Source: a virus
Length of the DNA: 24,161 bases
Virus record (IMG/VR): IMGVR_UViG_3300005935_000136
Span: 1 to 24,161 of that record
Strand: one strand, 5' to 3'
Shown: positions 1,451 to 6,086 of the stretch, in pieces
How the letters are laid out: every line of letters begins with the position of its first letter
How positions within the stretch are numbered: the stretch's first letter is position 1
The notes under the pieces: model-generated
The model's input: the letters and a program-made list of their open reading frames with translations, nothing else
Database searches by the model: none
What the model was told of the DNA's origin: nothing
Made by a program: the position numbers and the translations under genes

Positions 1451-3109
1451 ATGCCATATAGTAATATTGAAAGTATTCCAAAATCTTTAAAGACTGCCAA
1501 TTTAACTTTATTGCAGGCTAATGATTGGGCGCGATATTATGATGACGCGAAAAAATCAGGTGCTGGATCAGCGGCAGCTGTGGCATGGCAAGTTTTTAAG
1601 AAAAAATATTATAAATCAGGAAAACAATGGCGGAAGAAAAAAGCAGCTAGGGCAGAAAAATGTTTATTTAATCCAGTAATAAAGCTAAACACTATAAAGT
1701 TAAGGAAAATAAAAAGGGAGGATGTTATGGAAGAAGTAAAAGGTTATGAACTAGTTTATAGAGGCTCTTCAAAACCTACATCATTAGAGGATGTAGATGC
1801 TGAAGGAAAAGTATACGAAAAAGAATTAATTAGAGAGGGAGAATGGGCGCACCCGCAGAGAGCAAGTGTAAAATTAAAAATTACACTAGCAAGAATGAAA
1901 GAATGGGTAGCGAATTTTAATAAACAGTTATTTAAAGTTCCAGTTCCAAAACGCCATTCATTAGATCCCGAAGACAATAGGGGATGGGTTAAGAAATTAA
2001 TACTGCGAAAAAATGATGAAGGAAAGCATGTGCTTTTTGGGCATTTGGATATTACAAATGATAAAATGCAAAAATCAATTGATACTGGTGATATTCAAGA
2101 TGTTTCAGTATCTATTGGTGATTATAGAGATAACAAGGGCAAAAAGCACGGTGAGGCTTTACAGCATGTTGCGTTAACAGTTATACCGCATATTGATAGC
2201 CAAGCTGGATTTAGTCCTATTAATGCTGAGGGTTATATGTGCCTTGAAGAAGTAGGTTTTGAAAAAGAGAAAAAAGAAACAATCGATAATCAAGCACCAT
2301 CTGGAAGTGCGGAGAAAGAAAAAGAAGAAATTCAAGATGCGATTATTATAGCTAGAATGTTTCCAGAAGAGAAAAATTTTTATATTGTAGGTACTTATGA
2401 AACTAAAATTATTGCTCAGTATTTTGGCGGAGGTGCTGGTGAAACTGGTGAGCCAATTTCAGATAGGTATTTTGAAATTCCATATACAAAAGATTTAAAC
2501 GGAAATTATGTATTTGGCGATAAGGTGGAACTTGTTAAAGAATATTATTTTATAGAAAAGTCTTATGTTGAAAAACCTACTGTTGCTGCAGAAGGCGACA
2601 ATAATATAGTTGACAGTGACGAAAAAAACATACAAGAGGAGGCTGAAATGAAGGAGTTTGAAACATTAACGCAGAAACATGCGGAGCTGGAAAAGAAAAA
2701 AGTTGACCTGGAAACAAAGGTCGCGGAGATGGAGCCTAAGATTGTTGAGCTTGAAAAAGCAAAAACAGATCTTGAGGAAAGTAATAAAGTTATGAAAGAG
2801 AAACTTGACACGATTGATGCTGAAGCTAGGGTATCATTTGAAAAAGCAACTGATAGTAAAGTTGCTCAGTATGTTGAGGCTGGAAATATCCTCCCTGCAG
2901 AACAGGAAGATATAAAAGCTGTTCTTTTAGAGGGTGGTAAGTCAGCAGAAGTGCTGGAAAAAACTCTTAAAGATCGCAAAGCAATTGATCTTGAATCAAG
3001 AACGATTCAGGAATCTAAGAAGATTAAAAATGGTGGCGAGTTGACGCCTGAGCAAATTAAGGCTGAAGCTGATCGTATTTCAAAAGGAGATGCACCTATC
3101 AAAAGTTAA
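1451..3109 (+). CDS. ChaB-like domain + prohead protease + scaffold polyprotein
   Basis: This 552-residue protein starts at an ATG six bases after AGGAGG (1439-1444). Residues about 5-62 look like a ChaB domain (IPKSL, a central AVAWQVFKKKY, then a Trp). Residues about 93-250 resemble a Mu gpI-type prohead protease. H169 (in KRHSLD) and S219/S221 (in VSVSIGD) are candidate catalytic residues about 50 apart, followed by HVALTVIPH. Residues about 297-372 form a separate beta-rich block of unknown function. Residues 400-552 are a charged coiled coil typical of scaffolds. In this family the protease cuts the scaffold and itself during capsid maturation. Two in-frame internal ATGs (1727 and 2648) have excellent ribosome sites, so three nested products are likely. 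Position between the portal-associated protein and the capsid genes fits. The catalytic residues and the ChaB assignment are inferred from motifs, not proven. Confidence 0.75.
   Translation: MPYSNIESIPKSLKTANLTLLQANDWARYYDDAKKSGAGSAAAVAWQVFKKKYYKSGKQWRKKKAARAEKCLFNPVIKLNTIKLRKIKREDVMEEVKGYELVYRGSSKPTSLEDVDAEGKVYEKELIREGEWAHPQRASVKLKITLARMKEWVANFNKQLFKVPVPKRHSLDPEDNRGWVKKLILRKNDEGKHVLFGHLDITNDKMQKSIDTGDIQDVSVSIGDYRDNKGKKHGEALQHVALTVIPHIDSQAGFSPINAEGYMCLEEVGFEKEKKETIDNQAPSGSAEKEKEEIQDAIIIARMFPEEKNFYIVGTYETKIIAQYFGGGAGETGEPISDRYFEIPYTKDLNGNYVFGDKVELVKEYYFIEKSYVEKPTVAAEGDNNIVDSDEKNIQEEAEMKEFETLTQKHAELEKKKVDLETKVAEMEPKIVELEKAKTDLEESNKVMKEKLDTIDAEARVSFEKATDSKVAQYVEAGNILPAEQEDIKAVLLEGGKSAEVLEKTLKDRKAIDLESRTIQESKKIKNGGELTPEQIKAEADRISKGDAPIKS
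1715..1729 (+). promoter_or_regulatory. Internal ribosome site and in-frame ATG for the protease without the ChaB-like domain
   Basis: AGGGAGG at 1715-1721 is followed after five bases by an ATG at 1727, in frame with the gene starting at 1451 (Met93). The site falls in the lysine-rich linker between the ChaB-like domain and the protease domain, exactly where an independent protease start would be placed. Starting here would give a 460-residue protease-scaffold. It may be the original gene start, with the ChaB-like part added upstream. Confidence 0.55.
2648..3109 (+). CDS. Nested in-frame capsid scaffold protein (internal start)
   Basis: An ATG at 2648, in frame with the protease gene (its Met400), is preceded by AGGAGG at 2637-2642 with five-base spacing. 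The predicted product is 153 residues. It is rich in Glu and Lys with heptad-like Leu/Val spacing over its first 70 residues, and ends in a basic, probably capsid-binding tail. This matches the lambda C/Nu3 and Mu I/Z arrangement, in which a scaffold is made from an internal start inside the protease gene so that it outnumbers the protease. Codon use supports separate expression: of 13 leucine codons in this section ten are CTN and two TTA, whereas in the protease section before it TTA dominates. The scaffold would be incorporated inside the procapsid and then degraded. Confidence 0.65.
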   Translation: MKEFETLTQKHAELEKKKVDLETKVAEMEPKIVELEKAKTDLEESNKVMKEKLDTIDAEARVSFEKATDSKVAQYVEAGNILPAEQEDIKAVLLEGGKSAEVLEKTLKDRKAIDLESRTIQESKKIKNGGELTPEQIKAEADRISKGDAPIKS

Positions 3110-3565: not shown

Positions 3566-3949
3566 ATGAGTAATTATCCAGGATATGGAACAACGCTAAC
3601 AAATGATCCTACGGCAATACTTGCTTCTGGTCATGGTTACATTGTTATTAATGTAACTATTAAATCAGGAGAAGGCGAGCTTGAAAAAGGTCAGGTGTTG
3701 GGAGTTGAAACTGCATCTACTAAATATGTTAAGTATGATTCAGGCGCTGGTGATGGTAGTGAAGTTGCAAAAGCAATTTTAGCAGATAAAGTTGATGCAA
3801 GTTCTAGCGATATTCTTGTCGCTGCTTATATACGCGGTGCATTTGTGAAAAGCAAACTTGCTGATTATGATGCTGCTGCGTTAGTTGATCTTAATGGTCG
3901 GCTTATTGGAATTGAAGGTGGAGCAGATACTGATATAGTTCTTATATAA
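3566..3949 (+). CDS. Head decoration protein, copy 2 (paralogue of the upstream gene)
   Basis: This 127-residue protein aligns with the gene at 3151-3531 along its whole length, with one extra Asn at position 3 and 17 substitutions in 126 aligned positions (about 86% identity by hand count). The substitutions cluster in the loop after KYVKYD, around residues 91-95, and near the C-terminus. The core GQVLG, AKAILADKVDASS and AAYIRGAFV segments are unchanged. The leader is also duplicated: both copies are preceded by an ATAATTTATTTTAA-type stretch and AGGAGG. It is presumably a second capsid decoration subunit, either mixed with copy 1 on the same shell or displaying a different surface loop. 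Many synonymous differences show the duplication is not very recent. Confidence 0.85.
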   Translation: MSNYPGYGTTLTNDPTAILASGHGYIVINVTIKSGEGELEKGQVLGVETASTKYVKYDSGAGDGSEVAKAILADKVDASSSDILVAAYIRGAFVKSKLADYDAAALVDLNGRLIGIEGGADTDIVLI

Positions 3950-4029: not shown

Positions 4030-5004
4030 ATGGGATATGGAGAGCTTTCAATACTTCAGCATCAAATTATGACTGAAGTGGTCAAAAAGTTTCCGACGCC
4101 TCAGTTTATTGGTAAAACAATGTTTCCTGAAAAACCAATAGATACCGACACTGCAAAGTGGGATGAGACGCACCAGAATCGGGATATGGCTGACTATGTA
4201 GTGCCTGACGGCGAGGGTAATGTTGTCGCTAGACTTGGGGTTATTCAGCGCTCAAGTACGGTAGCTTGTTTAAAAGAAAAGAAACAGTTGAAAGGTTCTA
4301 CTATGGCTTGGTTGAGAAAGCCAGGAACTGATCATGTTCAGTATGCAGAACAGGCGGTTAAGGATGAGCTGGCTGATCTTGATAGTAGACTTGAATTTCG
4401 GAGAGAGTGGGCTAGATGGTCTGCGCTTACTGGAACTTTAACTATTGATCAGACAAAGGTGAAGTTTACGGTTGACTATGGTATTGATGCAACTCACAAA
4501 CCAACAGTTGGAACAGCTTGGAGTGATGTTAGTTGCGATATCATCGGCGACTTGACTACCTGGAAACAGTTAATCCAGCAGGATAGTGGTGAGCAGGCAA
4601 CAACTGTTTATTGCAACACCATTGTTATGAACTACTTAGTTAAAAATACAGGGATTAAATCCCTGATGGGTGAGCAGCTTAAAACCCAGATCTTGCAGAG
4701 TGGTTATATTACTCGTGTTATAGGTCTTAATTTTGTAGTGTATGATGCAGGTTATGTGCCAGCGTCAACGGATACTTTTACGAAGTTCGTTGATGATGCA
4801 CATGTGTTTATGGTGACTAGCTCTATTTTTGCAGAAGAGCAGTTAGCACCTTCAACTGATCCGAAATCAAGTTACAGACCTGGAAAGTTTAGTAAGTCAT
4901 GGCAGGAAGATGATCCAGCTGGAATTTGGGTACTGGTTGAATTAAATAGTTTGCCAGTAATTAAGAAAGTTGAAAACATTGTATATGCAGACATTACCCC
5001 GTAA
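4030..5004 (+). CDS. Major capsid protein (HK97-fold, gpE-like)
   Basis: The predicted product has 324 residues. The ATG at 4030 is preceded by GGGAGGT (4016-4022) seven bases upstream and is chosen over an in-frame GTG at 3997. The content fits the major capsid protein E group: an N-terminal helix, a beta strand with PIDTDTAKWDE, a Trp-rich long helix region (RREWARWSALTG), a middle section with a WSDVSCDIIGDLTTWKQ strand-helix, and a C-terminal strand VIKKVENIVYADITP. It directly follows the protease/scaffold and decoration genes, where the capsid gene is expected, and it is the largest product there lacking other domains. Leucine codons are mainly CTT/CTG/TTG instead of TTA, a sign of strong translation. 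Hundreds of copies would form the icosahedral shell. A strong hairpin follows at once. Confidence 0.8.
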   Translation: MGYGELSILQHQIMTEVVKKFPTPQFIGKTMFPEKPIDTDTAKWDETHQNRDMADYVVPDGEGNVVARLGVIQRSSTVACLKEKKQLKGSTMAWLRKPGTDHVQYAEQAVKDELADLDSRLEFRREWARWSALTGTLTIDQTKVKFTVDYGIDATHKPTVGTAWSDVSCDIIGDLTTWKQLIQQDSGEQATTVYCNTIVMNYLVKNTGIKSLMGEQLKTQILQSGYITRVIGLNFVVYDAGYVPASTDTFTKFVDDAHVFMVTSSIFAEEQLAPSTDPKSSYRPGKFSKSWQEDDPAGIWVLVELNSLPVIKKVENIVYADITP

Positions 5005-5126: not shown

Positions 5127-6086
5127 ATGCTGTGTACAATAGAAGATTTAAAGCGGATATTAGAAACACAGAAAAATAATATTACAATTGGTGAGGACGA
5201 AGATGATTCAACTACAGAAGCTAATGCAGAGCAAAGTATTAGAGAGGCAGATGTAACTATACAGGGATATTTAACAGGGGTTTATAAATTTCCATTGAGG
5301 AATAGAATATTGTTAAATACTACTGGACTTTCAGCAACGAAAAGTTTGGTTTATCAACCAGAAACGCCAAGACAGTTAGCAATAGTGGTTAGTGGCGATG
5401 GCACAATGTCAGATAATAATACAATAGTTATTAGAGGTACAGATCATAATGGAACAGCATTATATGAGGGAATTAAGGTTACTAAGTCAGGATCTTATGT
5501 AACTGCAAATTATTTTAAATCAGTTAATGAAGATGGGATTGAAATTGGCAGCGCATTTTTAGCACTTACTGATGCATCTATTACTGTATTAAGTTACGAT
5601 ATATTAAATTATATAGCTCAAAGATTAGCGAGTTATAATTTGTATAGAGATGTATTTTCTGCAAACGCGCCAAATGAAACGCCAGATACTGTAACCACGT
5701 GGAAAGATCAGGCTGAGGGCTATTTACAAAAAATTAAAGATAAAATGTTTTCGTTAGATACGCAGGTCGCGCCAGATGATATACCAATTTTAGAAAGACC
5801 AGTATATAATATTCCAACCAAATTTTTTGAATATAGAGGTGTTGCTGGATTGGAGAGGCTTGAAGATGCTAGTTATCAAGATTATGATGGAGATCATCCG
5901 CATAGTATAGATAGTGAGGGTTCTTCAGGATTATCATTGAGTATAGAACAAAGCGTTATTATTCCTCCAGATACATGGACAACTGGATCAAGACCAGCTG
6001 CACCTTATGTTGGTCAAGCAGGAATTAATACTGAAACTGGACAGTTTGAAGGATGGAACGGGACGGCGTGGGTGTTGTTAGGTTAA
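5127..6086 (+). CDS. Head-tail connector, DUF1320 / Mu gp36-like, with extra domains
   Basis: This 319-residue protein starts after AGGAGG (5116-5121). The N-terminus (MLCTIEDLKRIL, then a region with EQSIREADVTIQGYLTGVYKFPL) and residues 155-210 (ILNYIAQRLASYNLY followed by a Trp-containing helix) are the two halves of the DUF1320 adaptor fold seen in Mu gp36. Between them, residues about 69-150, lies an inserted Ser/Thr/Asn/Gly-rich beta domain. Residues about 278-319 form another add-on (RPAAPYVGQAGINTETGQ, then WNGTAWV), a motif common at the ends of virion surface proteins. Typical family members are near 140 residues, so this one is more than twice the usual length. It probably forms a ring below the portal, as the gene order capsid - DUF1320 - gpG - terminator implies. 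The added domains may be exposed on the neck. Confidence 0.75.
   Translation: MLCTIEDLKRILETQKNNITIGEDEDDSTTEANAEQSIREADVTIQGYLTGVYKFPLRNRILLNTTGLSATKSLVYQPETPRQLAIVVSGDGTMSDNNTIVIRGTDHNGTALYEGIKVTKSGSYVTANYFKSVNEDGIEIGSAFLALTDASITVLSYDILNYIAQRLASYNLYRDVFSANAPNETPDTVTTWKDQAEGYLQKIKDKMFSLDTQVAPDDIPILERPVYNIPTKFFEYRGVAGLERLEDASYQDYDGDHPHSIDSEGSSGLSLSIEQSVIIPPDTWTTGSRPAAPYVGQAGINTETGQFEGWNGTAWVLLG

Follow-up and report, generated by a model that had tools for sequence, protein, structure and literature searches.

Results

The gene and its neighbourhood

The window, by which we mean the whole stretch of DNA that was analysed (24,161 bases of an IMG/VR record), comes from the head and tail gene cluster of a tailed phage. 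Its gene order is portal, F-like, protease/scaffold, decoration and capsid. The gene at 1451-3109 has a Mu F-like gene as its 5' neighbour (PF04233, E 2.9e-6), and on its 3' side lie two lambda D-like decoration genes and then a lambda E-like capsid gene; in domain order, the protease is upstream, the coiled-coil scaffold downstream and the capsid gene next. The features are listed below.

1439-1444, + strand: Shine-Dalgarno (SD) sequence AGGAGG for initiation of the full-length ORF, 6 nt ahead of ATG 1451, duplex energy -12.0
1451-3109, + strand: full-length ORF, ChaB-protease-scaffold, 552 aa, a single open frame that is kept in the related locus L002
1451-1642, + strand: ChaB-like domain, residues 1-64
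1716-1721, + strand: SD sequence GGGAGG of inner start 1, energy -11.9, 5 nt to ATG 1727; L002 equivalent AAGGGGGAG
1727-3109, + strand: predicted ChaB-less protease-scaffold product, 460 aa, from SD-start strength, conservation and the synonymous-codon test
1799-2242, + strand: prohead protease domain of assemblin fold, residues 117-264 (phrog_976 E 1.6e-15; VIA)
1955-1957 and 2105-2107, + strand: His169 and Ser219, in conserved columns
2303-2560, + strand: extra region of ~85 residues from protease to scaffold, with no Pfam or PHROG match
2637-2642, + strand: SD sequence AGGAGG of inner start 2, energy -12.3, 5 nt to ATG 2648; in L002 GAGGAGGTG
2648-3109, + strand: predicted scaffold-only product of 153 aa with a coiled coil, from SD-start strength, codon use, conservation and a long helix
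3151-3531, + strand: decoration protein A, lambda D-like (PF02924 E 4.8e-17), a codon-use expression reference
3566-3949, + strand: decoration protein B, tandem copy
4030-5004, + strand: major capsid protein, lambda E-like (PF03864 E 5e-43)

The two decoration genes are closely similar, stand in tandem and have an SD each, and L002 carries a single copy. The F-like gene (473-1438) probably starts at 503 (SD -9.4), overlapping the end of the portal gene, the first ATG at 473 scoring -1.6. Promoter-like sites were not enriched in the window (27 vs 23.1 in shuffles).

Domains of the full-length protein

The N-terminus had been guessed to be ChaB-like in the original prediction, and profile comparison, a viral HMM and the fold of the ChaB structure 1sg7 agree with that guess. 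The Pfam model PF06150 gave E 0.3 and 12.2 bits for the window protein, not reaching its curated cut-off of 27, and a PF06150 search of the window record returned no ChaB match. Profile-profile alignment to E. coli ChaB and one viral ChaB gave P = 1e-5 (hhalign), and a viral-ChaB profile built without this lineage and searched against 5000 shuffles scored the window protein at E 5e-6, L002 at 0.0016 and the best shuffle at 3.1. Residues 1-60 of an AlphaFold model built from 18 sequences lie above pLDDT 90, and the model superimposes on 1sg7 over 60 residues with an rmsd of 2.6 and Z 5.3 (VIA). The N-terminal domain is a divergent relative of ChaB, hence "ChaB-like". It shares with the ChaB family (PF06150; E. 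coli 1sg7, PMC514712) the MPY..., A-W and K..Y.K signature, the three helices and the small sheet, but differs in falling below the Pfam cut-off, in a 7-residue deletion in helix 2 and in its position N-terminal to a protease.

The protease assignment comes from fold as well as profile: residues 116-264 of the AlphaFold model match varicella-zoster protease with Z 11.1 and T4 gp21 with 9.1, compared to ~5 for unrelated folds (VIA), and His169 and Ser219 are conserved among 23 aligned proteases and in 90% or more of A6. PF10123 was below threshold for the window protein, a PDB sequence search gave no match and Foldseek alone gave no E < 0.001, the fold matches coming from VIA. As the assemblin fold spans 116-264, a product begun at 1727 would hold the whole protease, ChaB being an addition to it. 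By eye, the region at 2303-2560 resembles the stretch directly behind ChaB in two other loci, L040 and L079. The full-length AlphaFold model, made from two sequences, is poor (pLDDT 46), and only its long helix from residue 391 was used.

ChaB on phage head proteases

A ChaB scan of viral contigs yielded 71 loci, nearly all of which carry ChaB N-terminally on a long protein, and 14 of the 16 scanned ChaB fusions match head-maturation protease families (Mu-like_Pro, phrog_976, phrog_328, XkdF-type S78_2 and others). Phage head proteases of metagenomic viruses thus repeatedly bear an N-terminal ChaB module; none of the literature that we searched connects ChaB with such proteases. An inner ATG with an SD of -11 or below is present in 26 of 41 viral ChaB-fusion genes, compared to 15 of 97 neighbouring control genes (p = 5e-8). 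A strong SD-start precisely at the ChaB/protease junction (junction 1) is rare, being found in this lineage, L040 and L054, with weaker ones in L045 and L077.

Two of the fusions have features of their own. In L035 (233-2305) a single ORF of 691 aa joins ChaB, a protease (phrog_15531), a coiled coil and the major capsid protein (PF25209, E 1.4e-46) into a head polyprotein; its residue 259 is encoded by an inner ATG with a strong SD. In the Methanomicrobiales virus vir524 (L026:6001-7227) a full ChaB (E 1.6e-18) is fused to a protease/scaffold-like head gene that is annotated only as hypothetical, and its strongest inner start (AAGGAG) precedes the coiled coil.

Three in-frame start sites

SD sequences were scored as duplexes with the 16S tail, the host's anti-SD and codon preferences being assumed. 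As predicted, an SD and an ATG are present at 1451, 1727 and 2648, all in one frame and spaced by 5-6 nt, and they match the domain borders: ChaB ends at about residue 64, the protease fold covers 116-264 and the long helix runs from 391. All three duplex energies beat the median of 21 gene starts (-10.2), and the ATGs at 1727 and 2648 take ranks 1 and 2 among the 277 internal in-frame ATG, GTG or TTG codons (154 of them ATG) of the 21 genes. Since both had been picked for their SDs, their rank by itself does not test the prediction independently; the relatives do. Predicted local RNA structure amounts to 0.0 kcal/mol at 1727 and -1.4 at 2648, compared to a gene-start mean of -4.5. As a control, two annotated inner starts were scored: that of Mu Z came 4th among 16 internal starts and that of Nu3 2nd among 35, so the SD score is a guide rather than proof and inner starts with weak SDs exist. 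A GTG at 2951 (energy -10.2, GGTGG far upstream) was also considered as a start and rejected, not being among the strongest starts of L002.

No relative of the whole protein was found by tblastn in phages or by scans of genome contigs, and a viral-contig search with the whole gene returned four loci only. In the locus L001 the gene is identical to that of the window. The locus L002 encodes a ~61% identical protein of 535 aa; relatives lacking the inner ATGs and SDs had been named as the finding that would count against the prediction, and L002 retains both inner SD-ATG pairs along with the first, the inner two being the two strongest starts of its gene and ranking 1 and 2 as in the window. In L002 the linker ahead of the first inner start lacks 18 residues and other residues encode the SD (KREDV vs KGEK), so that amino-acid constraint does not explain the survival of the junction-1 SD. 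When upstream codons were randomly recoded by the phage's own codon frequencies, the single sites were borderline (p = 0.06 at 1727, p = 0.04 at 2648), and the two junction-1 sites of the window and L002 combined gave p = 0.004. Sixteen scaffold starts combined gave p = 0.003, with single sites mostly not significant.

The scaffold start in distant relatives

Starting from Rossellomorea phage phiT1 and Gordonia phage GMA3 we reached 14 phage genes that are of the phrog_976/Mu-like_Pro type and have no ChaB. In 10 of the 14 (vB_BpsS-36, Curly, 268TH004, Jayan, MVC_VPHSA1, PcaP2EGY, Blastoid, GMA3, Woes and Magritte) the best internal SD-start is an ATG where the protease ends, directly ahead of the coiled coil, being Met156 in the Bacillus phage Curly and Met203 in GMA3; phiT1 and Trogglehumper have a GTG start at the protease/scaffold junction, and TIN2 and Jumbo have an ATG there that ranks second. 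The record tables examined list none of these junction starts as a feature of its own; the Mu record annotates Z inside I, and the lambda record annotates Nu3. As a scaffold start at the same junction is common to most of the distant relatives, it belongs with those of lambda C/Nu3 and Mu I/Z. Taken with its SD, its conservation in L002 and the capsid-like codon switch described below, this bears out the predicted scaffold restart, and the start at 2648 almost certainly functions.

Other loci are of note in their own right. In L012 (3743-5233) an unrelated S49-type protease gene, adjoining a related capsid gene, has an inner SD-ATG (TGGAGG, codon 340) before a scaffold-like end, so the nested arrangement extends to a further class of protease. 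Extremely strong inner SDs precede the scaffold part in L100:2940-4433 (GGGGGTGA, -21.3, codon 328) and in L080:1080-3260 (GGGAGGTGATC, -22.6, codon 531).

Codon use changes near the scaffold start

The original prediction held that leucine codons change at the inner start, and its hand count is exact: 2 TTA, 1 TTG and 10 CTN after 2648, against 9, 1 and 6 in the protease part. Leucine alone is borderline between protease and scaffold (Fisher 0.05-0.06) and reaches 0.014 with the ChaB part included. A log-likelihood codon score of the decoration and capsid genes against the window's other genes averages +0.16 in the scaffold, -0.14 in the ChaB part and -0.08 in the protease part; synonymous-codon shuffling within the gene gave p = 0.0006 and 0.0002 in two test versions. 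Past 2648 the gene uses codons as the decoration and major capsid genes do. On all codons the switch is clear. Its estimated change point, 2522-2576, is near 2648, 24-42 codons upstream of it.

That displacement, together with the mosaic nature of phage head genes, would suit an origin of the switch in different ancestry (a module swap) or in coiled-coil composition rather than in expression, an explanation that we consider rather unlikely. The permutation preserves amino acids, which speaks against composition, and the scaffold scores on the very axis that separates decoration and capsid genes from all others. As decoration B has a low GC3 (0.135) and yet the same leucine choice, the switch is not simple base composition. 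It also recurs in L002 (p 0.005), GMA3 (0.001) and Jumbo (0.003), and in Jumbo the change point is at codon 199 with the inner start at codon 203. The same test found no switch in phiT1, Curly, Jayan, Blastoid, Woes and Trogglehumper; as it recurs in only some relatives, it is supporting and not defining evidence.

Discussion

Based on these data we think it likely that the window holds a nested head protease-scaffold gene with three starts and the corresponding predicted products. The start at 1727 probably functions: L002 keeps it although the linker there has diverged, but few other phages have one. Indeed, most other viral ChaB-protease fusions are without a strong junction start, and in many relatives the protease begins at its own gene start with no ChaB, as would be expected if only the full-length protein and the scaffold were made and the SD at 1727 were a little-used relic of once separate ChaB and protease genes. 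We regard this as unlikely, since L002 retains the site although amino acids and linker have changed, 9 of 50 junction-1 ATGs of ChaB fusions have an SD of -9 or below against 36 of 850 control ATGs (p = 5e-4), and the surroundings of 1727 are free of predicted RNA structure.

Self-cleaving protease-scaffold proteins exist, P2 gpO being an example. Such a protein is discussed for another phage (PMC10219371), which counts in favour of a single polyprotein whose scaffold is freed by its own protease, and Glu-Glu codons alone can yield GAGGAG, so that the SD-like stretches could be chance encodings, the synonymous p at 2648 being just 0.04. This reading is most improbable, as 1727 and 2648 are the strongest internal SD-starts of the window, distant relatives have a start at the same junction although other residues precede its ATG, and a polyprotein would not explain the codon switch at the scaffold start.

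Scaffold restart is a known phage principle, of which this gene is a new form by virtue of its ChaB fusion and its probable third start. In lambda C/Nu3, as here, an in-frame scaffold is nested at the 3' end of the protease gene, followed by D and E; lambda C, however, is an S49-type protease with neither ChaB nor a third start, whereas the window protease is of assemblin-type fold. The strongest internal SD-ATG of lambda gene C (L102:2543, lambda 5342) is codon 309 (-10.8), the annotated Nu3 start at 5132 scoring -7.4. A Nu3 start later than the annotated one would fit what Medina et al. reportedly found in 2010. Herpesvirus UL26/UL26.5 encodes 3'-coterminal protease-scaffold and scaffold-only products. 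It shares these coterminal products and the protease fold (Z 11.1) with the window gene, but the herpesvirus scaffold has a separate transcript, whereas the window gene has inner ribosome-binding sites. Mu I/Z and the Mu-like PaMx73 (PMC4378225) resemble the window in having a PF10123/phrog_976-type protease, an in-frame scaffold start with an SD (in PaMx73 a putative one at Val177) and the capsid gene next; they differ in having no ChaB and no third start, and the capsid and decoration genes of the window are lambda D/E-like instead. Mycobacteriophage Ms6 lysA (PMC3111421) likewise embeds an in-frame second protein, but it serves lysis and gives two products.

We propose that ribosomes would initiate at 1451 to give the full-length protein, at 1727 to give a form without ChaB and at 2648 to give the scaffold alone, the latter presumably in excess, to which its codon use points only indirectly. 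The predicted products have masses near 63, 53 and 17 kDa and the N-termini MPYSNIE, MEEVKGYEL (Met93) and MKEFETL (Met400). The scaffold coiled coil would drive assembly of the capsid protein, and a few longer forms would co-assemble through their identical C-terminal scaffold, bringing a small fixed dose of protease into the prohead, where the protease (His169/Ser219) would then degrade the scaffold before or during packaging. ChaB, present only on the longest form, may provide a contact of its own, with portal, shell or nucleic acid, or restrain the protease. Lambda has an initiator complex of portal, protease and scaffold (PMC3224144), and by analogy we conjecture that ChaB may tie the longest form to such a complex or to nucleic acid. 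More broadly, ChaB could be a widespread N-terminal accessory of several unrelated head-protease classes that some phages dose via a second ribosome-binding site, giving three C-terminally identical, tuned proteins per prohead; we see this wider proposal as evenly balanced between right and wrong.

The principle of lambda C/Nu3 and Mu I/Z would thereby be extended to three nested, predicted products, and the orphan ChaB domain gains a concrete setting in phage head proteases. Codon use can mark an in-frame inner start and is thus a usable annotation signal. As most of the inner scaffold starts that we found are unannotated in the public phage records examined, annotation may be overlooking scaffold genes on a wide scale.
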